Below are positions 8,376 through 52,285 of a DNA stretch of 64,000 bases, in pieces. The DNA is from Pseudoalteromonas arctica A 37-1-2 (GTDB lineage: Bacteria; Pseudomonadota; Gammaproteobacteria; Enterobacterales; Alteromonadaceae). The notes beneath the pieces are model-generated. The model was not told the DNA's origin and did not search any database. It saw only the letters and a program-made list of their open reading frames with translations. The position numbers and the translations under genes are program-made. The stretch's first letter is position 1. Each line of letters begins with the position of its first letter. Where the stretch lies: positions 3,472,001 through 3,536,000 of the forward strand of contig NZ_CP011025.1 in the NCBI RefSeq assembly GCF_000238395.3, in the 5' to 3' direction.

Positions 8376-10907
8376 GTGCCAAACCAGCTTAAATTGCTAA
8401 TATTAAACGCAAGTAGTGCTGAACGTCGCGCGATTAAAGGCACTTTAGATAGCTTAAATGTATTTACCTTTATTGATGCGCAAGATAGCCAACAAGCTTT
8501 AAAGCTTTTAAAACAACACCCTGTTGATATTATAATAACGGGCATTAATGTTGGAAAAATTGACGGCTGGCGCTTTTCGAGGATGATCCGCTCAGGATTA
8601 TTAAAAACACCAAAAAACACCCCAATTTTACTTATTCCGCCAATTTACTGTGAGCGTATTGCCGAAACAACAGCCAGAAGCTACGGAATAGATGCTGTAC
8701 TGCCGTTTGAACATAAAGACATGCTTCCTCAAGTGCTTGCGAATGTTTTATCTACGCACTTAGAAAAAAGTAGCCGACTAAATTTATTGCTATTAGAGCC
8801 GCTTCAAAATACGGCCGACAAAATTAGTGAACAGTTAAAGTTAAACTTTGCTATTACTCACGTTACCTCAGCCAAAGCAGCACTAAACGCTTACAACCAA
8901 CAGCAGTTTTCAATTGTGCTACTCGATGCCACTACATCAAGTGCAGAGAGCTCGAGTGTACTCGTTGAAGAAATCCTACAGCACAATTCTAAACAAGCTA
9001 TTGTTACGATTATAGAAAGTGATGATGCTGATTACGCTGAGCAGCTTTTGCTGTCTGGTGTTACCGATTTTATTAGAGCCCCATACGACCCTTCATTTTT
9101 AAATAAAGTGTGTGACCACGCCGCACGACGTGAAGATTTTATGGTGAGTTATGCTGAGTTTGCTTACAAAGTAGAGCAGCTAAGCGTGAGCGAAGTGCGT
9201 TACAAAGAGTTATTTTCGGCTCATCAGCGTATTTTATTGCATTTGAATACGGTTGTTTTAGAGCTTGATCAGCAAGGGCATATTCGTTTTATTAACCCTG
9301 CATGGGAGGCATTGAGCGGTTTTGGTGTTAAATCATCGCTACAAACCCCATTAAGCGCTTATTGTAATAACGAAGATAAAGGAAGACTAAATTATACTAT
9401 TAATGACATTTTACATGGTGGCGAGCAACAGCAACAAATAGAAGTAAAGCTCACCCATAAAAATGGCAATTTAATTTGGGTCGAATGCAGATTACAGCTA
9501 ATCAAAAATAGTCGTAATAACGCGACCATAACTGCCACTATCGACAACATACATGAACGTAAACAAGCAGAGATCCAACTACGTCATTTAGCACACCATG
9601 ACCCACTAACTGGTTTACATAACCGTTATTACTTTGATCAACAGCTTAATAAAATATGCCAAGATAAATACACGTATGATGGTATAGAGCATGCTGTTAT
9701 TTATATTGACCTCGATCACTTTAAAATAATAAACGACAGCAAAGGTCACCACCAAGGTGACATAGTATTAAAAGAAGTGGCGCAATTATTTAAAGCAAAT
9801 ATTGGCGAAGACCATTTGGTGTGCCGAATAGGCGGCGATGAGTTTGCAGTCATACTTACCGATATGAATTTACTGGATGCACACCTTATTGCTGAAGGTG
9901 TGTGCAGCGCAATAGAAAAACATGCTTTTAAATCAGAAGATCAGATATACACAATTAGCTGCTCTATCGGTTTAACTCAAATTACGACACAAAACAATGA
10001 TCCTAATGAATGTTTAAAACAAGCCGATATTGCTTTGTATATTGCCAAAAATTTAGGGCGTAACTTAGTACATTGCTACTCAAAAGAGGACGCTCAAAAC
10101 AATACGCTTCAAACTGGGCTCGAATGGGGTCACGAAATTCGCCAAGCATTGCAGCAAGATAATATTGAACTGCATTACCAACCTATTTGGGATTTTAAAG
10201 AGTGTAAAGTTGCTTATTTTGAAGCGCTCTTACGCTTAAAACTCAAAGGTGAACTTGTGTACCCAAATCAATTTATTCCCTCTTTAGAGATGCTTAACGA
10301 CACATTTTTGATGGATCAATGCGTTATACGTAATGCCGTTGCTTGTGTGTCTAAGCACCCAGAGTTAAACCAAGTTGCTATTAATTTGTCAGCACAATCA
10401 TTCTTAGATGAACGCTTATTGCCATTAATTGAATCAAACCTTGAAAAGTATAACGTGCCCCCTTCGCGGATAATTTTTGAAATAACTGAATCAGCAAGTA
10501 TTAACAACTTAAAAGCGACTCGTAAAATGATTGAGAAGCTTAATAGCTTAGGCTGTCATTTTTCTATTGACGATTTTGGAACTGGCTTTAGTACATTTAA
10601 CTATTTAAAGCAGCTTCCGGCACAGCATGTAAAAATTGATGGCTCATTTGTAAGCGACATGCTTAATGACCCTATAGACTTAGCGTTAGTAAAAGCAATA
10701 AATGACATTAGTCGGTCTCTCGGTAAGCTTTCTGTAGCTGAGTACGTTGAAAACGAAAAGATATTTTTTGCACTAAAAGAGATAGGTGTTGATTATGGAC
10801 AAGGCTACTTTATTGCACGCCCAGTACCTGTTGAAAAAGTAAAAAGTGAACTTGAAAAAATTTCAAAAAATAAAACGTTTTACCAACAACAAGCTAGCCC
10901 AAAATAA
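8376..10907 (+). CDS. Double-receiver PAS-GGDEF-EAL c-di-GMP protein
   Basis: This 843-residue soluble protein has two receiver-like domains (about 1-125 and 130-255), a PAS domain (about 275-400), GGDEF (about 405-570) and EAL (about 585-835). In the first receiver the phospho-acceptor Asp is Gly56 (IIITGINV) and the acidic pair is missing; the second keeps a candidate Asp in IVLLDATTSS. The GGDEF signature RIGGDEF (486-490) is intact. EAL residues are largely intact: EALLR at 616, DDFGTGFST, and AEYVE where AEGVE is usual. It may both make and degrade c-di-GMP. The start is GTG at 8376 behind an aggggtg ribosome site. It is a single gene, divergent from queA. Confidence 0.88.
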   Translation: MPNQLKLLILNASSAERRAIKGTLDSLNVFTFIDAQDSQQALKLLKQHPVDIIITGINVGKIDGWRFSRMIRSGLLKTPKNTPILLIPPIYCERIAETTARSYGIDAVLPFEHKDMLPQVLANVLSTHLEKSSRLNLLLLEPLQNTADKISEQLKLNFAITHVTSAKAALNAYNQQQFSIVLLDATTSSAESSSVLVEEILQHNSKQAIVTIIESDDADYAEQLLLSGVTDFIRAPYDPSFLNKVCDHAARREDFMVSYAEFAYKVEQLSVSEVRYKELFSAHQRILLHLNTVVLELDQQGHIRFINPAWEALSGFGVKSSLQTPLSAYCNNEDKGRLNYTINDILHGGEQQQQIEVKLTHKNGNLIWVECRLQLIKNSRNNATITATIDNIHERKQAEIQLRHLAHHDPLTGLHNRYYFDQQLNKICQDKYTYDGIEHAVIYIDLDHFKIINDSKGHHQGDIVLKEVAQLFKANIGEDHLVCRIGGDEFAVILTDMNLLDAHLIAEGVCSAIEKHAFKSEDQIYTISCSIGLTQITTQNNDPNECLKQADIALYIAKNLGRNLVHCYSKEDAQNNTLQTGLEWGHEIRQALQQDNIELHYQPIWDFKECKVAYFEALLRLKLKGELVYPNQFIPSLEMLNDTFLMDQCVIRNAVACVSKHPELNQVAINLSAQSFLDERLLPLIESNLEKYNVPPSRIIFEITESASINNLKATRKMIEKLNSLGCHFSIDDFGTGFSTFNYLKQLPAQHVKIDGSFVSDMLNDPIDLALVKAINDISRSLGKLSVAEYVENEKIFFALKEIGVDYGQGYFIARPVPVEKVKSELEKISKNKTFYQQQASPK

Positions 10908-28912: not shown

Positions 28913-30178
28913 TTATTCTGCTATTGCCTCAATAATATCGTCACTGTATAAAACAGCATCCAGTAAAAAATTAAATATATCGCCAATGTGTAGCTCTGAG
29001 TTTATGTTGGCCAAATGGACCATAGCTTCATCTACATTATCTAATTCAAATTCTTTTATAAGCGATAAACAGTTTCCTAAAATGCCGCTCTCTAATAGTA
29101 ACGCATCAGATATAGCTGCATCTAAGGTAAACTCTTTAACTATGTCTTTTAAATCAGCATCTAAAATGGCATCAAGCACCGAGAACAAACCCACTAGATA
29201 CCCTTGCTCGGTCAGCTTTTTATTATTTTGCTCTAAAATAAGCGACATAAATTGAGCCCGCGTTAAAGCAAGCTTAGTTAATTCGGTTGGTTTTTCGACC
29301 CCCAACTCACTAATTGCTAATACACGAACAAATTGCCTTATTGTATCTTCACCTAAATAAATAACCGCTTGTGAAATAGACGTAATGACTAAATTTGCTT
29401 TTCCTGAACGCGCGTTAGCCAGCTTTAAAACCCTGGCTGTTATGGCTACATCTCTGGCCACTCGTTGATGAACTTCTTTAAAGCAAAGTTTTTGTTTTGC
29501 TGTAAAACGCAATAGATCAAAAACAGTTAACTTTGAAGGCTCTACACCTTTATACGTAATCATTTCTGGGCGAGAGAAAAAGAACCCCTGAAATAAATCA
29601 CAGCCTGCCAATTTTAATATATTAAATTGTTCATGCGTCTCTATTCGTTCAACAATTATTTTTGCATGTGGATTTGCGCGTTTTATTTTTTTAATGCGCA
29701 TATTGGTTTTAATAACCGGATCATCTATCTCAATTTTTATGTAATCAACATGTGCTAATAGTGGCTCCCATTTTGGATCGCCATCGTAATCATCAAGTGC
29801 AAAAACATACCCTTCTTTTTTAAGTTCTTGCACACGCTCAGCAACCGCAGGAATATTGCCCGTGCGCTCTACTATTTCAATAACACTATTTTCTGGCAAT
29901 AAAAGTTTGGGAAAGTTATCGAGAATAGTTTCTGATGACAAGTTTATAAAAGCTAAATGATGCGCGGTAAGTCTATCTAAACCTACCAACATTAATGCAT
30001 TAAAAAACAGGCGGCTTGTCGCATGCACATCAGAAGTGCCCACAGGAAACGCATTGTTGGCTGAGTCTCGATAAAGCAGTTCGTACGAGAAAACATTCTG
30101 GTCTATATCAAAAATAGGTTGCCGCGCGACAAACTGAGTTATTTTTTGTACCTCATCAGGTATGTTATTTAATTTCAC
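28913..30178 (-). CDS. EAL-HDOD signalling protein (YuxH family)
   Basis: A 421-residue cytosolic protein with an N-terminal EAL domain (about 10-200) and a C-terminal HDOD domain (about 205-400). The EAL part is degenerate: the signature is ELLYR, and the catalytic loop DDFGTG reads DDYDGDPKW, so c-di-GMP hydrolysis is unlikely. HDOD domains occur in regulators of motility and c-di-GMP-linked outputs such as CdgJ in Vibrio. It is the first gene of a two-gene unit with the PqiA-domain protein. Confidence 0.88.
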   Translation of the reverse strand: MKLNNIPDEVQKITQFVARQPIFDIDQNVFSYELLYRDSANNAFPVGTSDVHATSRLFFNALMLVGLDRLTAHHLAFINLSSETILDNFPKLLLPENSVIEIVERTGNIPAVAERVQELKKEGYVFALDDYDGDPKWEPLLAHVDYIKIEIDDPVIKTNMRIKKIKRANPHAKIIVERIETHEQFNILKLAGCDLFQGFFFSRPEMITYKGVEPSKLTVFDLLRFTAKQKLCFKEVHQRVARDVAITARVLKLANARSGKANLVITSISQAVIYLGEDTIRQFVRVLAISELGVEKPTELTKLALTRAQFMSLILEQNNKKLTEQGYLVGLFSVLDAILDADLKDIVKEFTLDAAISDALLLESGILGNCLSLIKEFELDNVDEAMVHLANINSELHIGDIFNFLLDAVLYSDDIIEAIAE

Positions 30179-45228: not shown

Positions 45229-45304
45229 GGGGCTATAGCTCAGCTGGGAGAGCGCCTGCCTTGCACGCAGGAGGTCAGCAGTTCGATCCTGCTTAGCTCC
45301 ACCA
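45229..45304 (+). tRNA. tRNA-Ala (anticodon UGC)
   Basis: A 76-nt cloverleaf with an acceptor stem ggggcta/tagctcc, an anticodon stem cctgc/gcagg around cttgcac (anticodon tgc), a T-loop gttcgat and an encoded CCA end. This tRNA usually lies inside rRNA operons in gammaproteobacteria; here it stands alone. No terminator is evident in the next 170 bp, and nothing else is seen in 45305-45482. Confidence 0.97.
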
Positions 45305-45482: not shown

Positions 45483-46745
45483 ATGGACAACCCTAAGCGT
45501 TCGACGCTAAAAAAGCTAGCTGCTATAGGTTTAACAGCTGGTGCAATAACACATGCGCCTTATGTTTTTGCCCGAAAAAAAGTCACATTAAGAGTGCTTG
45601 GTACGCATGTAACACTCCAAGAGGCTATCCGCAAACAAGCGATGAGTGACTTGGGTATTAATATAGAATTTACTCCCGCAGGCAGCGCTGCCGTTTTGCA
45701 AAAGGCATCAATGGACCCTAGCTCCTTTGATTTATACGAACAATGGTCAAACAGCATTAATGTGCTTTGGGATGCAGGTTCTATACAGCCAATAGAAAAA
45801 AAACGACTCACCTACTTTAACGAGATAAATCCACTTACTAAAACGGGAAAATTAACCGAAACTGCAAGTATTGGTGCAGGTGATGCTCCCTATAAATTAT
45901 TAAATGTTCAACCCGATGGCACATTAAGCGCACAAGAAAGCGATCATATTAGCTTTTTACCTTATGTGCATAATGTTGACTCTTTTGGTTACAACACCGA
46001 TTTTATTAAGCCCGGTATAGCATACGAAACCGAAAGCTGGAGTTGGCTGCTTGATGACGAGAACAGAGGTAAAGTAGCTATCGTAAATGCGCCTACCATT
46101 GGACTCTTTGACCTAGCCCTAGCAGCGCAAAGTAAAGGGCTTATAAAATTTAAAAATATAGGTGCGATGACTCGCCCAGAACTTGATAGATTGTTTATTA
46201 TATTACTCGACTTTAAACGCCAAGGTCACTTTAGTGGCTATTGGAACTCGGTTCCTGAGTCGATTGAATTTATGAGAAGTAAGCGAGCCCATATAGAAAG
46301 TATGTTTTCGCCTGCCGTCTCTGCGTTAAACAGCCAAAATATTAATATTCGTTTTGCCGCGCCAAAAGAAGGCTACCGAGGCTGGCATGGTGTTATGTGT
46401 TTATCGTCACAAACACAAAGTAGCGTAAAAGATGCAGCTTACGATTATATGAATTGGTGGCTTTCAGGCTGGCCTGGTGCATTTATTGCTCGCCAAGGTT
46501 ATTACATTAGTAACCCACAACGCTCTAAACTACTCTTATCGCCGGCCGAATGGGATTACTGGTACGGTGGAAAAGCAACAAACATAGACTTATTAAATAC
46601 AAATGGCGACGTAGCTATTAAAGCTGGTGCGCAACGTAATGGTGGTAGTTACTATAAACGCTTTAGCAATGTAGCAGTATGGAATACAGTTATGCCAACC
46701 TATGACTACAGTCTACAAAAATGGTATGAGTTGATTAGCCGATAA
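45483..46745 (+). CDS. PotD-like periplasmic solute-binding protein, sensor partner
   Basis: A 420-residue exported protein with an N-terminal signal (KRSTLKKLAAIGL, ending near PYVFA). The family 1 / spermidine-putrescine binding fold is suggested by DLYEQWSNSINVLWDAGSIQ, LPYVHNVDSFGYNTDF, SWSWLLDDENRGKVAI and GWHGVMCLS, which match PotD segments in order. No ABC transporter genes follow. Its stop codon overlaps the ATG of a hybrid histidine kinase (TAATG), so it most likely presents a ligand to that kinase. A polyamine is a reasonable guess from the PotD fold, not proven. It begins about 180 bp after the tRNA. Confidence 0.85.
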   Translation: MDNPKRSTLKKLAAIGLTAGAITHAPYVFARKKVTLRVLGTHVTLQEAIRKQAMSDLGINIEFTPAGSAAVLQKASMDPSSFDLYEQWSNSINVLWDAGSIQPIEKKRLTYFNEINPLTKTGKLTETASIGAGDAPYKLLNVQPDGTLSAQESDHISFLPYVHNVDSFGYNTDFIKPGIAYETESWSWLLDDENRGKVAIVNAPTIGLFDLALAAQSKGLIKFKNIGAMTRPELDRLFIILLDFKRQGHFSGYWNSVPESIEFMRSKRAHIESMFSPAVSALNSQNINIRFAAPKEGYRGWHGVMCLSSQTQSSVKDAAYDYMNWWLSGWPGAFIARQGYYISNPQRSKLLLSPAEWDYWYGGKATNIDLLNTNGDVAIKAGAQRNGGSYYKRFSNVAVWNTVMPTYDYSLQKWYELISR

Positions 46746-49700
46746 TGATAATAAATTCAATTAAATCAAAAATAATATTAGCTTTGTGTTCGCTGATTGG
46801 ATTACTTCTTTTACAAAGCTATTTGTTTAACTATTCGCAAACGTCCTTACTTAACTTGCAAAAGTCGCAGCATAACGCGCTTATTCAAAGTGAAGCTGTG
46901 AATCACTTAGAAAACGATATTATTTCCCTGCAAGGGCATGCAGTTTCATTTATTGACAATGCAAATGAAAATACGATTACCAAATTTAATTTTTATTTAA
47001 ATAAGGCAAATCTAAATCTCGAGCAGCTAAAAACAAACACTCAAAACCAAACCCCTGAGTATCAAAACTCACTAATACGCCTTGGCGAGTATCTAAATAA
47101 TTACCAAGATACATTTGGCCAAGTTGTCGTAAACAGACAAAAACGCGAACACCTTTACACTACTCAGTTCAAACAGCCTATTGATGACCTACAGGTAACA
47201 ATTAGTGATTTAGAAGGGTCTTCAAACAATGATAATAAAGTTATTTTTAACGATGTTTTACTCACAATAAGTAATTTAAAACACGCAATTATAAGCTATC
47301 TCTATAAACCTAATTTTGATGAAGCACAAAATGTAAAACAAAACTTAAATCACTTACATAAAAAACTAACGAGCACCTCTGTAATAAATGAATCCCTCTC
47401 CAATAAAACAACAAGCTTAAAACAAGCTTATAACCAACTTGTATTACTCACCCGTAGCTACACTTTTTCTGTAAATGTAGTGCTTACAGGCATAGAAAAC
47501 GAATTGCTGTATTTAACTAATGAAATTAAAAACATAGAAAAAAATAAACTAATCAAAACAGAAGAGCTACTAAGTAGCCACTTAACAAAAAATACAGAAC
47601 AGGCAAATATATTTGCCGTTTTAATTATGTTAATCATTTTATTTTTAAGCTATTTTATTTTTAGATCGGTTATAAAACCAATTACTCAGCTCACTTTATT
47701 ACTTAAAGATATGAATAGCGAAAAGCCAGTAACTATTTCAAATAACAGCCAAAATCAAACTGAAATAGCGTCGGTAATAAAAGCAGCTAATGCTTTATAT
47801 TTAAAAAATAAGCAAACCAAAGAGCTACTCAACGAAACCCGCGTATTAAATTCCCAAATGGAAGCAATGAATGCCGACCTGACGAGTGCTATGGAGCAAA
47901 CTGATAAAGCCAATAAAACAAAAATAGATTTTGTAGCCAATATGAGTCATGAACTTCGCACCCCAATGAATGGCATATTAGGTATGTTGCAACTCTTACA
48001 AAGCAGTGAGCTTCCCTCAAGGCAAAAACACTACGCAGATAAAGCTTTTTCAAGTGCTCAAAATTTATTGCAGATTTTAAATAATATTCTGGATTTTTCT
48101 AAACTAGAATCGGAAAAAGTTCAGTTAGAGCAAATCCCTTTTACCTTACATACTATAGTTTCTAACGTTCAAAATTTATTCTCAACAAATGCTAAGCAAA
48201 AAGGCTTGTTATTAAACTTTACTTTACACGTTGATGCAGGGCTTGAACTTATTGGCGACCCAATGCACTTAAGCCAAATAATAAATAACTGTGTAGGTAA
48301 CGCAATTAAGTTTACTGAGCATGGTGAAATATCATTAATTATAGAAGCGACATCTCAACACGAAAAAACAATAAACCTTCGCTTTAGTATAAAAGACACG
48401 GGTATTGGGATGACCGAAGAGCAATCAAAAATTATATTCCAGTCTTTCTCGCAAGGTGATTCAAGCACAACAAGAAAGTATGGTGGGACGGGTTTAGGGC
48501 TCACTATAAGCAAACAATTAACTAAATTGCTAGGCGGAGATATACAAGTAAGGAGCACGATTAATCAAGGTAGCGAGTTTTTCTTTACTCTACCCTTTAC
48601 TTTATCTGAGCAACAAAAGCTTAAAAAACACGCCTTATTAATTAGCCCTGATAATGAGCAAATTAAAAAATTAATGGACTTACTAAGTGATATAAATATA
48701 ACGACAGAAACAACACAAGAACCATTAAGGGCCATTGCAAAAATGTCTCAGCCTAGTAGCCCATTTAGTATTGTAATAATGTCGATAGAAAAAAAAGAGC
48801 TCAACGATAACTTTATTTTACAACAACTGTACGCTCAAAATAAAAACGTTAATGAAAAATTGACACTGATTTTATTAATTACCGATGAAGAGTCTCCTGA
48901 GCCAATTGCAAAAAATGAAAATATAGACATTATAATTATTGGTAATAAAAATAGTGAAGTTGAAATTTTAAGAAAGCTTTCACCAAATAATTTTAAAGAA
49001 AAGCAATTAAAGCCTCACCCTAAATTCTCGGGTTTTAATGCATTAGTTGTTGATGATAATAGAATTAACCAAGAAATAGCCTCCGCCCTTTTAGCAAAAT
49101 TAGATATGACCGTGATCATTGCTGATAATGGACATGATGCATTAGATAAAGTAGAGATAAATGACATCGATATTATTTTTATGGATGTTCAAATGCCAGT
49201 TATGGATGGGCTTGAAGCAACAAGCATATTAAGAGAGCGAGGCTACAAAACTCCCATAATTGCCATTACGGCAGCCGCAGATCCTAATGATAAAAAAGCA
49301 GCGTTTAGAGCGGGTATGGATGACTTTTTAGTAAAACCGATTATTTTTGATGCGCTTTACGAAAGTATAGAAAAGCATCTGCAAAGTAGCGAATCTCTGA
49401 GCACTATAAACCTGCCTTTAGCAAAAGAAAACCTAGAAAACAATGACGAATTGTTAGCTAAATTATTTACTCAGTTTGTCAACGATTACAATGACTTTTC
49501 GATTAAAGCTGATATATTAATCAAAAATGGAGAGTTAGAAAGCTTAATTCGACTAGTACATACACTCAAAGGCTTGGCCGGCACATTAGGCTTTGAGCTA
49601 CTGCAACAAAGTGCGCAAAGTGTTGAGAAAAGCTTAATAGATAAGAAAAGTATTAATTTATCTCATTTTAATGAGCAATTAATACTTACACTTTTTGCTG

Positions 49701-49963
49701 TAAAACAATTTTTGATAGCTTACAGCTTTAAAAAAGAACATATACAGCAACATGAACTAGAAAACGAAGACTCGGTTATTGATAATATATACTCATTAGC
49801 ATTAACGGCTCGCCCCGTACCTAGCAGTTTGATTAGACAGCTAGAAATGAATCAATATGAGAGAGGCCACTCTCTATTTAAGCTCAAAGAAGCAATTGAT
49901 CATTTTAACTACGCGTTAGTAATTGAGCTTATTGATAAGTATAGAAACGATAATAAAAATTAG
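46745..49963 (+). CDS. Hybrid sensor histidine kinase with HPt domain
   Basis: A 1072-residue inner-membrane kinase. In order: TM1 (about 8-26), a helical periplasmic domain (about 30-285), TM2 (288-308), HAMP (about 309-360), HisKA with His402 (NMSHELRTP), and HATPase (NAIKFTEHG near 518, DTGIGM near 552, GGTGLGL near 580). Then come a degenerate receiver without clear acidic residues (about 630-750), a true receiver with Asp814 (FMDVQMPVMDG) and an HPt domain with His939 (LVHTLKGLAG). The layout resembles TorS. It is translated from an ATG overlapping the stop of the PotD-like gene and is followed 59 bp later by its probable response regulator. Confidence 0.93.
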   Translation: MIINSIKSKIILALCSLIGLLLLQSYLFNYSQTSLLNLQKSQHNALIQSEAVNHLENDIISLQGHAVSFIDNANENTITKFNFYLNKANLNLEQLKTNTQNQTPEYQNSLIRLGEYLNNYQDTFGQVVVNRQKREHLYTTQFKQPIDDLQVTISDLEGSSNNDNKVIFNDVLLTISNLKHAIISYLYKPNFDEAQNVKQNLNHLHKKLTSTSVINESLSNKTTSLKQAYNQLVLLTRSYTFSVNVVLTGIENELLYLTNEIKNIEKNKLIKTEELLSSHLTKNTEQANIFAVLIMLIILFLSYFIFRSVIKPITQLTLLLKDMNSEKPVTISNNSQNQTEIASVIKAANALYLKNKQTKELLNETRVLNSQMEAMNADLTSAMEQTDKANKTKIDFVANMSHELRTPMNGILGMLQLLQSSELPSRQKHYADKAFSSAQNLLQILNNILDFSKLESEKVQLEQIPFTLHTIVSNVQNLFSTNAKQKGLLLNFTLHVDAGLELIGDPMHLSQIINNCVGNAIKFTEHGEISLIIEATSQHEKTINLRFSIKDTGIGMTEEQSKIIFQSFSQGDSSTTRKYGGTGLGLTISKQLTKLLGGDIQVRSTINQGSEFFFTLPFTLSEQQKLKKHALLISPDNEQIKKLMDLLSDINITTETTQEPLRAIAKMSQPSSPFSIVIMSIEKKELNDNFILQQLYAQNKNVNEKLTLILLITDEESPEPIAKNENIDIIIIGNKNSEVEILRKLSPNNFKEKQLKPHPKFSGFNALVVDDNRINQEIASALLAKLDMTVIIADNGHDALDKVEINDIDIIFMDVQMPVMDGLEATSILRERGYKTPIIAITAAADPNDKKAAFRAGMDDFLVKPIIFDALYESIEKHLQSSESLSTINLPLAKENLENNDELLAKLFTQFVNDYNDFSIKADILIKNGELESLIRLVHTLKGLAGTLGFELLQQSAQSVEKSLIDKKSINLSHFNEQLILTLFAVKQFLIAYSFKKEHIQQHELENEDSVIDNIYSLALTARPVPSSLIRQLEMNQYERGHSLFKLKEAIDHFNYALVIELIDKYRNDNKN

Positions 49964-50022
49964 GCATAACCACTAACCTGAACTAGATTTAATATTGTAA
50001 AGAACGCAGAGAAGGACAGATA

Positions 50023-52230
50023 GTGCATTCAAATTACCTCGCAAACAGTAATGGATTAACCACAGAGAAAAAACATAAACCTTTAATTCTTATTGTTGAT
50101 GACGAACCTAGTAATTTACACGTATTAGTAGAAGGACTTTTAACTGACTACGATGTACGTATTTCTACTAGTGGTGAGCAGGCTTTGATCTTTATTGAGT
50201 CAACTCGGCCTGACTTGATTTTATTAGACATAATGATGCCTGGCATGGACGGCTACGAAGTATGTAATATACTCAAAGCGAAACAAAATACCAAAGGCAT
50301 CCCCGTCATATTTGTAACTGCGCTTACCGAAGAAGAGTCTGAAGAAAAAGGCTTTGCTATGGGCGCAATTGACTACATACACAAACCTTACAAGCTAGCG
50401 CTCGTTAGAGCACGCATTCGCACTCATATTACCGCTCAAGGCATGCTAGATAGGCTTATCGAAAAAAACTTTGACCTGCACGACAAGCTACTTGAAATAG
50501 AATCACTAATACAAGAGCTAAGCCAGCGTGAAGAAGAATTAAAAGAGCTCTCATCAAAACAAAAATTATTTTATCAAGCCCTAACGGGAACCGCTGATGG
50601 CGTTGTTATTACCGACAGTAACGGAAAAATCATTGCCGTAAACCCTTCATTTTGCCGGATTACAGGTTACTCTGAATCTGACTCCCTGCAAATGCAGTTG
50701 CACGATATTAAACAAAATAACCACCCTAGTATTAGCTTTGATCAAGTATGGCATCATGCAAACCAAGCAGGATATTGGAGTGGAGAGCTAGTAACCAGAC
50801 GAAAAAATGGCGAGCTTTATCCTGAGTTATTAACTCTTAGTATGGTAAGAGGCGAGCAAGATACCAACGTGCACTATATTGGTGTATTTAGTGATATTTC
50901 TAGCGTTAAGATAACGCAAGAAAGAATTCACTACCTCACATGGCATGATGAACTTACAGGTTTGCCCAACCGAAATGGTTTTTTAAAGCAGTTGGAGCAG
51001 CAACTTCAGGTTTGTAGTACCGAAAATAGTTATGCCTATATTTATATTATTGACATAGACAGCTTCCACTCAATAAATGATGGATTAGGCCTACTCGCTG
51101 GCGATAACATTTTAAAAGAATTAACTAAACGAATTCATTCTAAGGTGAATAAAAAAGATGTTATTGCTCGCTTAGGCAGTGATGAATTTGCAGTACTGTG
51201 TACAGTTGAAAAAGGCGTTGGCAGGATCAGAGCCCAAGCTATGGCTGAAAATAAAGCCCAAGAACTGATCATAAGTGTAAACCACCCCTTTGTCGTTGAT
51301 GAACAAGACGTTAGCTTAACAGTAAGTATTGGCACGTATATTTTTCCTCGGGAAGATCAGTGGGAAAGTGCTATAGAAACAATCCGTAACTGTGAGGCGG
51401 CTTGTTACAAAGCAAAAGAAAAAGGCGGTAATAGAGTTACCTTTTTTGATACTTCGTTTGGCGAGCAAGCAAAACGCCGTTTTGAAATAGAGCAAGATTT
51501 ACGTAAAGCAATCTCAAATAATGAGTTATCCCTATATTTACAATCCCAATTTGACCGAAGCCAAACCCTTAAAGGGGCTGAGGTTTTATTAAGATGGGAG
51601 CATCCTCAAAAAGGCTTCATTAGCCCTGGTGAGTTTATATCTATAGCCGAAGAGTCAGATATAATTTATGACTTAGATTGCTGGGTAACTTCAAATGCAC
51701 TTGAAATATTAACGCAACTTAGTAAAACTCACCCTGAGTTAAACCTATCAATTAATGTAAGTGGCAGGCACTTTCATGAAGCGCGTTTTTTAAGCTTTAT
51801 TAGCCAACAAATAAAGCAACATAGCATTAATCCTCAGCAACTCACTATTGAGATAATTGAAGGTACATTGCTTAATCACATGGAAGCGGCTATTGAGGCT
51901 GTTCACTTTATCAAGAAGCTAGGTATTAGGGTATCAATTGATGACTTTGGTACTGGATATTCGAGTTTAACTTACCTTAAACAATTACCCATACAAGAAC
52001 TAAAAATTGACCGTTCTTTTGTATTGGAAGCACCGACTGATAATAACGATAAGCTAATTATTGATATGATTGTAAGCTTAGGCCGTTTATTTGAACTCGA
52101 GATAGTTGCTGAAGGTGTAGAGAACCAGTCCCACTTTGATTTATTGCAAGAATATCCAGAAGTTATTCTTCAAGGCTATTATTTACACAGGCCTGAACCT
52201 GCAAGCGACTGGCTTGAAAAACTAAATTAA
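50023..52230 (+). CDS. Response regulator with PAS, degenerate GGDEF and EAL domains
   Basis: A 735-residue protein with a receiver (Asp69 in LLDIMMPGMDG, and VDDEPS, intact), a coiled linker, PAS (about 185-300), GGDEF (about 305-470) and EAL (about 485-730). The GGDEF signature reads GSDEF (385-389), so cyclase activity is doubtful. The EAL domain keeps EVLLRW (520-525), INVSGRHF, DDFGTGYSS and VAEGVE, consistent with a working c-di-GMP phosphodiesterase. The start is GTG at 50023 with AAGGA six bases upstream. It is the output gene of the PotD-like/hybrid kinase locus and ends before a shared terminator. Confidence 0.92.
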   Translation: MHSNYLANSNGLTTEKKHKPLILIVDDEPSNLHVLVEGLLTDYDVRISTSGEQALIFIESTRPDLILLDIMMPGMDGYEVCNILKAKQNTKGIPVIFVTALTEEESEEKGFAMGAIDYIHKPYKLALVRARIRTHITAQGMLDRLIEKNFDLHDKLLEIESLIQELSQREEELKELSSKQKLFYQALTGTADGVVITDSNGKIIAVNPSFCRITGYSESDSLQMQLHDIKQNNHPSISFDQVWHHANQAGYWSGELVTRRKNGELYPELLTLSMVRGEQDTNVHYIGVFSDISSVKITQERIHYLTWHDELTGLPNRNGFLKQLEQQLQVCSTENSYAYIYIIDIDSFHSINDGLGLLAGDNILKELTKRIHSKVNKKDVIARLGSDEFAVLCTVEKGVGRIRAQAMAENKAQELIISVNHPFVVDEQDVSLTVSIGTYIFPREDQWESAIETIRNCEAACYKAKEKGGNRVTFFDTSFGEQAKRRFEIEQDLRKAISNNELSLYLQSQFDRSQTLKGAEVLLRWEHPQKGFISPGEFISIAEESDIIYDLDCWVTSNALEILTQLSKTHPELNLSINVSGRHFHEARFLSFISQQIKQHSINPQQLTIEIIEGTLLNHMEAAIEAVHFIKKLGIRVSIDDFGTGYSSLTYLKQLPIQELKIDRSFVLEAPTDNNDKLIIDMIVSLGRLFELEIVAEGVENQSHFDLLQEYPEVILQGYYLHRPEPASDWLEKLN

Positions 52231-52253: not shown

Positions 52254-52285
52254 AAAAAGCCGAGTATTTCCATACTCGGCTTTTT
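52254..52285. terminator. Bidirectional terminator between the signalling operon and proA
   Basis: A 14-bp stem (aaaaagccgagtat with atactcggcttttt) encloses ttcc, with T-runs on both strands. Confidence 0.92.

Follow-up and report, generated by a model that had tools for sequence, protein, structure and literature searches.

A three-gene locus of Pseudoalteromonas arctica may connect a transporter-free solute-binding protein to c-di-GMP hydrolysis through a hybrid histidine kinase

We analysed 64,000 nucleotides of the genome of Pseudoalteromonas arctica A 37-1-2 (contig NZ_CP011025.1, positions 3,472,001 to 3,536,000; hereafter the window, whose numbering is used below). The subject of this report is a group of three genes that encode a solute-binding protein (SBP), a hybrid histidine kinase and a response regulator with REC, PAS, GSDEF and EAL domains, the last of these associated with hydrolysis of the biofilm signal cyclic diguanylate (c-di-GMP). 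An earlier note on this DNA had described the three genes, and we find them at the same positions, including the overlap of the first two, where the SBP stop and the kinase start share one base in a TAATG junction. The kinase stop lies 59 bases from the GTG start of the regulator. The features of the locus, with the open reading frame (ORF) calls and other grounds on which they rest, are as follows.

45483..46745, + strand: SBP of 420 amino acids with the PotD/YdcS fold, without a transporter (ORF call, Pfam, structure model)
45483..45575, + strand: predicted export signal resembling those of the twin-arginine translocation (Tat) system, PKRSTLKKLA..., SBP residues 1-31 (loose pattern without chance control)
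46745..49963, + strand: hybrid histidine kinase of 1072 amino acids
46832..47596, + strand: periplasmic sensor region of the kinase, approximately residues 30-284, flanked by two membrane helices and presumably helical (hydropathy)
47921..48115, + strand: HisKA domain with His402 (Pfam, motif)
48254..48601, + strand: HATPase_c domain of the kinase (Pfam)
48641..49024, + strand: residues 633-760 of the kinase, linking HATPase and REC, a putative degenerate receiver (position; no Pfam match)
49043..49369, + strand: receiver (REC) domain of the kinase with Asp814 (Pfam, motif)
49517..49645, + strand: HPt domain with His939 (Pfam, motif)
50023..52230, + strand: response regulator of 735 amino acids with a GTG start (ORF)
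50086..50418, + strand: REC domain of the regulator with Asp69, kept in 12 of 12 sequences (Pfam, alignment)
50596..50901, + strand: PAS domain of the regulator (Pfam)
50941..51435, + strand: GGDEF domain of the regulator, with the site GSDEF and no RxxD inhibitory site (Pfam, motif)
51493..52194, + strand: EAL domain of the regulator, with EVL (Pfam; residues checked kept in 12 of 12 sequences)

We compared the neighbourhoods of 137 genes for SBPs with 370 or more residues, drawn from the best 80 of 255 loci on named contigs and from further genomes. Loci are numbered with the prefix L; the count leaves out L150 and L151, which have no SBP of usable length, and L152, which is cut, and L147 is a broken copy. 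The next gene is a histidine kinase matching the core of the window kinase in 102 of the 137, always on the strand of the SBP (102 of 102) and at a distance of -182 to 147 bases. ABC permeases lie within three genes of the SBP at 25 loci, and the remaining 10 genes have another neighbour or a contig end. Within the locus DNA examined, no permease match was found at the 102 kinase-linked loci, and no kinase match at the 25 importer-linked ones. We scanned 52 of the 102 kinases, all from outside the three-gene clade described below, with Pfam: HisKA and HATPase_c are present in all 52, REC in 47 and HPt in three.

A tree of 75 of the 137 SBPs, with 41 of the 102 kinase-linked ones, was built by a quick method without bootstrap after removal of L146 because of a spurious ORF; the program flagged long branches, above all L219. 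A branch with support 94 parts importer-linked from kinase-linked proteins, and the window SBP falls in the kinase-linked group. This group has 45 rows, 41 of them labelled as next to a histidine kinase. Among the four unlabelled rows, L203 and L208 have downstream kinase domains by Pfam, split over ORFs in L208, L079 has a cut, kinase-like downstream ORF that matches the sensor, and L121 is cut by a contig end. SBP-like proteins without a leader form a third group. The genome of A 37-1-2 itself encodes one SBP of this family and has 12 matches to the permease family PF00528. The two best-fitting of these 12 places were inspected: the permease most similar to one from the importer clade (26%, E 4.6e-7) belongs to an operon with its own SBP, and a fused permease also has its own. 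The earlier note had proposed that a binding protein without a transporter feeds the kinase and had named grouping with true transporter components as one observation that would speak against it; the window SBP instead stands apart from its importer-linked relatives. Given the widespread SBP-kinase adjacency, the lack of permeases and the position in the kinase-linked tree group, we conclude that the SBP is very likely a receptor subunit of the kinase.

The SBP is a member of a little-studied family. It is 97-98% identical to many Pseudoalteromonas proteins, and its name in databases is often spermidine/putrescine transport or ABC transporter protein. The structure model used here was made from alignment A2, with a predicted local distance difference test (pLDDT) score of 90.7, and replaced a model from the shallow alignment A1 (pLDDT 53.5). 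It has the fold of the PotD/PotF/YdcS structural family, and its closest structural matches are YdcS, PotD, Vibrio cholerae PotD1 and PotF. The sequence match to PotF is weak, and the score of 27.8 bits against the PotF equivalog NF007962 is under the curated cut-off of 636 bits. A pattern of RR or KR, two further residues and one of L, F, I, V or M, which is loose and has no chance control, occurs within 75 residues of the N-terminus in 100 of the 102 kinase-linked SBPs (61 RR, 39 KR). The two misses, L201 and L204, probably have an ORF start set too far upstream. The window SBP carries the KR form, and 25 of 25 importer-linked SBPs have the RR type. The pattern suggests Tat export.

The regulator has a much narrower distribution. 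We surveyed 108 Pseudoalteromonas genomes with thresholds of E 1e-50 for the SBP and E 1e-150 for the regulator, scoring the best 10 of roughly 100-210 regulator candidates per genome. The SBP is present in 51 genomes and the regulator in 21, and these 21 are exactly the genomes whose SBP shares 78% or more identity with the window protein. In all 21 the regulator lies downstream of the SBP on the same strand, across a gap of 2561-3537 bases that has room for one kinase; among the best 10 candidates scored in each of the other 87 genomes, no regulator was found at E 1e-150. Eleven of the best 80 named loci (L061-L071, all Pseudoalteromonas) have the three-gene order, 69 lack the regulator, and the third gene was not seen at loci outside the Pseudoalteromonas clade. 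Conservation of the order in relatives, which the earlier note had named as a test, holds for 21 of 21 regulators; the order was seen in one Pseudoalteromonas clade only, which weakens that reading. We consider it likely, with good confidence, that the regulator is the output of the SBP-kinase pair.

A GGDEF or EAL gene lies within three genes of the SBP at 26 of the 102 kinase-linked loci, 11 of which are the three-gene clade. L148 has the order SBP, kinase, REC, REC-PAS-GGDEF-EAL; L193 and L201 have a GGDEF gene downstream; and L125 and L242 have REC-PAS-GGDEF-EAL and REC-GGDEF genes upstream (identified in part by BLAST only). Around kinase-linked SBPs, GGDEF or EAL domains are encoded by 28 of 480 genes at a distance of up to three genes versus 11 of 691 further away, or 17 of 428 versus 11 of 603 without the three-gene clade; the excess is modest, the rows are related, and we treat it as weak. 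L242:2448-12568 and L125:6876-16997 represent a second Pseudoalteromonas type of SBP-kinase pair, flanked by REC-PAS-GGDEF-EAL and REC-GGDEF genes and a second hybrid kinase, and genomes G1055 and G1109 hold both SBP types.

The output domains were compared in 12 regulator sequences, the choice of critical EAL residues being based in part on the literature. Residues E520, N578, E610, D640, D641, K661, E697, E700 and Q717 are constant in 12 of 12, and the middle residue of the EAL triplet is V or I. At the GGDEF site, S replaces the second G in 11 of the 12 (L066 also has A for E) and the canonical motif occurs only in L070, while the arginine of the RxxD inhibitory site is absent from all. The window site, GSDEF, departs from the GG(D/E)EF of diguanylate cyclases, and the description in the earlier note of a degenerate GGDEF domain joined to an EAL output holds. 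Because the EAL site is intact and the cyclase motif is changed, we predict that the regulator is probably a net phosphodiesterase, whose GSDEF domain more likely has a regulatory role than cyclase activity.

The earlier note had drawn a relay from His402 through Asp814 and His939 to Asp69, and all four residues are present in the window in their expected motifs. The kinase sensor region has no Pfam match and is followed by a HAMP-like stretch (about residues 307-352). A profile of 31 sensor regions, compared by sequence with proteins of known structure, gave mostly HAMP matches and a few others, none named TorS, LuxQ or LytS. We read residues 633-760 as a degenerate receiver because of their position, which resembles that in BarA-type kinases; this stretch is absent in L066, L069 and L071. 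Four of the 21 clade kinases (L069, L071, L238 and L239) have lost the REC domain, and their HATPase runs directly into the HPt domain, which keeps its histidine but has T, V or I at the lysine position of the HxxKG motif. L066 (the same contig as L243) lacks only the HATPase-REC stretch. Among the remaining 17 kinases, those judged by gap length alone have gaps with room for a receiver. The four-step relay therefore stands as a prediction for the window kinase and is weakened as a general property of the clade: given the receiver loss in four of 21, the HisKA histidine may, in these four at least, hand phosphate directly to the regulator. These four loci catch relay shortening within one clade and lend themselves to studying how such relays become shorter in nature.

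Several known systems resemble the locus in part. According to the literature drawn on here (passages of PMC9993111, PMC8967002 and PMC6321045, besides PMC8666671), a sensor kinase binds its ligand through a periplasmic binding protein that serves as a subunit in TorT-TorS (trimethylamine N-oxide), LuxP-LuxQ (autoinducer 2) and XylFII-LytS (xylose), as we propose here. TorS and LuxQ profiles match the core of the window kinase. We take its HisKA-HATPase-REC-HPt order to be of the TorS type. Conserved adjacency of binding protein and kinase across lineages, as expected of such pairs, is seen in 102 of the 137 SBP genes. Unlike these three systems, the SBP here belongs to the PotD/PotF/YdcS fold family and the likely output, an EAL regulator, has its gene next to those of SBP and kinase. 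In NspS-MbaA of V. cholerae and S. meliloti, according to the same literature, the gene of a PotD-like SBP likewise overlaps the next gene and controls c-di-GMP, and V. cholerae MbaA, for which phosphodiesterase activity is reported, also has EVL in place of EAL. The window locus differs in that the next gene is a histidine kinase and not a membrane GGDEF-EAL protein, and in that amine-binding residues of the PotF/PotD type are not kept (in comparison with PotF and PotD).

Among NCBIfam models the kinase matches BarA best, at 420 bits over residues 287-970, well short of the 890-bit cut-off. The regulator here is a different one, and BarA is not known to have a binding-protein partner. The regulator resembles EAL phosphodiesterases of the DibA/RocR type, with the EAL residues kept and a DibA profile match over residues 172-729 (482 bits; cut-off 980); it differs in its own REC domain and its fixed SBP-kinase linkage. 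The open-licence literature searched, as titles and abstract beginnings, yielded no report of this three-gene locus. We class the locus as a new form of sensor kinase assisted by a binding protein.

A polyamine or related compound had been suggested as the ligand. We mapped the ligand residues of PotF, as given in the passages of PMC8666671 drawn on here, to the SBP by profile-profile and MAFFT alignments, on which the mapping rests because the structure comparison did not align individual residues. The two alignments agree, E185 being the least secure position, and place W37, S38, D39 and E185 of PotF at T41, H42, V43 and A214 of the SBP, and W244, D247, F276 and D278 at F275, A278, W301 and G303. 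The four acids that hold the amine in PotF are replaced by V, A, A and G. According to the same source, W37 is 100% and the four acids at least 96% conserved in 250 PotF matches. In the window SBP and 22 homologues (69-80% identity), T41, V43 and G303 are constant, A214 is found in 22 of 23 and A278 in 21 of 23. Escherichia coli PotD has E, E and D at three of the acid positions and S at that of D247. On this mapping we dropped polyamines as the leading idea, and the ligand, as judged from sequence, is probably of another kind.

The importer-linked relatives (L143 clade) are homologous over most of their length at 29-39% identity and, unlike the window SBP, have ABC permeases and no kinase. 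Their loci mostly run ATPase, SBP, permeases, and 17 of 25 include an Asp/Glu/hydantoin racemase. The L143 locus adds genes for hydantoinase A and B, LamB_YcsF and a carboxyltransferase, a set we take to be 5-oxoprolinase PxpABC. In the importers at L143, L141, L144 and L213-L229, the SBP relatives are often named spermidine/putrescine proteins and mostly have racemase neighbours, which suggests that the named substrate is wrong. The leaderless proteins (391-406 amino acids; L209:8139-9314, L210:8487-9662, L212:7642-8838 and L219:10527-11747, with relatives named in Pantoea, Pseudomonas and others) apparently keep the SBP fold in the cytoplasm. Their neighbours encode an amidase, an allantoinase-like deacetylase, a major facilitator superfamily (MFS) transporter, short-chain dehydrogenase/reductase (SDR) enzymes and a CobW-type GTPase. 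At L147:5247-11402, broken SBP pieces lie beside amidase, cyclase-family and racemase genes. The importer and leaderless neighbours point to lactam, hydantoin or ureide chemistry. The window SBP shares T41, V43, W301 and G303 with eight L143-like and 47 L212-like proteins (like the 22 homologues, protein-database sequences without gene context). We speculate, as a lead only and one we hold doubtful, that the SBP binds a small nitrogen compound of the lactam, hydantoin or ureide type.

We propose, as a reasonably probable reading, that the locus encodes a three-part receptor in which a ligand acts through the SBP, the kinase and the regulator to set c-di-GMP hydrolysis. The SBP, exported by a Tat-type route, would bind a small periplasmic molecule and, in its empty or ligand-bound state, would contact the periplasmic domain of the adjacent kinase; we infer this contact because the adjacency is widespread and a transporter is absent. 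Autophosphorylation of the kinase would then change, and phosphate would reach the regulator at Asp69, probably by way of the kinase's own REC and HPt domains in this genome and probably directly in some relatives. Phosphorylation would alter the EAL domain, so that the ligand would set the rate of c-di-GMP hydrolysis.

Several points weigh against this proposal. Ligand binding, SBP-kinase contact, phosphotransfer and c-di-GMP hydrolysis are all inferred, and four of the 21 kinases have no receiver. The kinase also diverges much faster than its partners (at L069, the SBP is 80%, the kinase about 40% and the regulator 76% identical), which is odd for a tight partner. With respect to the ligand, the serine of PotD at the D247 position means that losing this acid alone would not exclude a polyamine. 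Positions 42, 88, 90 and 275, equivalent to pocket positions, differ between window-like and the eight L143-like proteins; taken with the shared positions, this indicates that the ligands may be related and need not be the same. No racemase or hydantoinase was found at the 102 kinase-linked loci, a PuuE-like match occurring at two, so that their neighbourhoods lend this ligand no support, and the lactam or hydantoin lead rests on relatives 29-39% identical, whose own substrate is likewise conjectural.

Other explanations share some of this evidence. The SBP could be a polyamine receptor that, like NspS, senses polyamines and here signals via the kinase; YdcS, PotD, PotD1 and PotF as best structural matches, the weak sequence match to PotF, the absence of a D247 equivalent from PotD itself and the EVL motif shared with V. 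cholerae MbaA (from the passages cited above) all fit this idea. We regard it as unlikely given that W37, D39, E185, D247 and D278 of PotF are replaced by residues constant or nearly so in 23 sequences. That the SBP serves an ABC importer with its permease elsewhere, beside the kinase by accident, is far less probable still: importer-linked homologues occur at 25 loci, but none of the 102 kinase-linked loci has a permease match and the two best-fitting permeases of this genome each have their own SBP, on which grounds we rejected an orphan importer component.

The kinase might act mainly on other regulators, with the EAL protein a minor target or an unrelated co-inherited gene. BarA-type hybrid kinases, the best NCBIfam match here, often act on regulators encoded elsewhere, and 69 of the best 80 named loci have no regulator. 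This alternative also seems improbable, since the regulator lies with the SBP in 21 of 21 cases and was not found at E 1e-150 among the best 10 candidates scored in each of the other 87 genomes. There is a somewhat larger, still small, chance that the GSDEF domain is an active cyclase and that the regulator both makes and destroys c-di-GMP, as MbaA does with its variant SGDEF site (in the passages of the papers cited above); relative L070 keeps GGDEF, but in 11 of 12 regulators serine takes the place of the second glycine and L066 also has A for E in the motif. A phosphodiesterase output governed by an SBP-kinase receptor remains the reading we prefer.

If this reading is true, a binding protein and a kinase dedicated to the task tie an extracellular chemical signal to c-di-GMP hydrolysis. 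In NspS-MbaA, the known case with a PotD-like protein, the SBP touches a membrane GGDEF-EAL protein directly. SBP-kinase receptor pairs of this type are common in marine bacteria, so their ligand might serve widely as an environmental signal to attach or disperse. The spermidine/putrescine transport name of the SBP is probably misleading, given the lost amine-binding residues and the lost transporter. More broadly, and with considerable reserve, the family may form a large, hitherto uncharacterised class of Tat-exported, transporter-free SBP-kinase receptors that share ancestry with a lactam- or hydantoin-type importer SBP and detect a compound of that type in marine Gammaproteobacteria and other bacteria. 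In this rather unlikely extension, the receptors would have become linked to c-di-GMP enzymes on several independent occasions, would control c-di-GMP breakdown in Pseudoalteromonas, and would in some cases use a receiver-less, shortened relay.

Upstream of the SBP lies a tRNA-Ala gene (45229-45304). Promoter-like sites are at chance level (26 versus 24.4 in shuffles) and were not used. Downstream, proA is the convergent neighbour of the regulator, and a terminator-like hairpin of 14 pairs is predicted at the boundary of the two genes (52254..52285, reported on the - strand). The window contains two more EAL-domain matches, at 10134-10823 and 29567-29968, and the genome has 35 in total.

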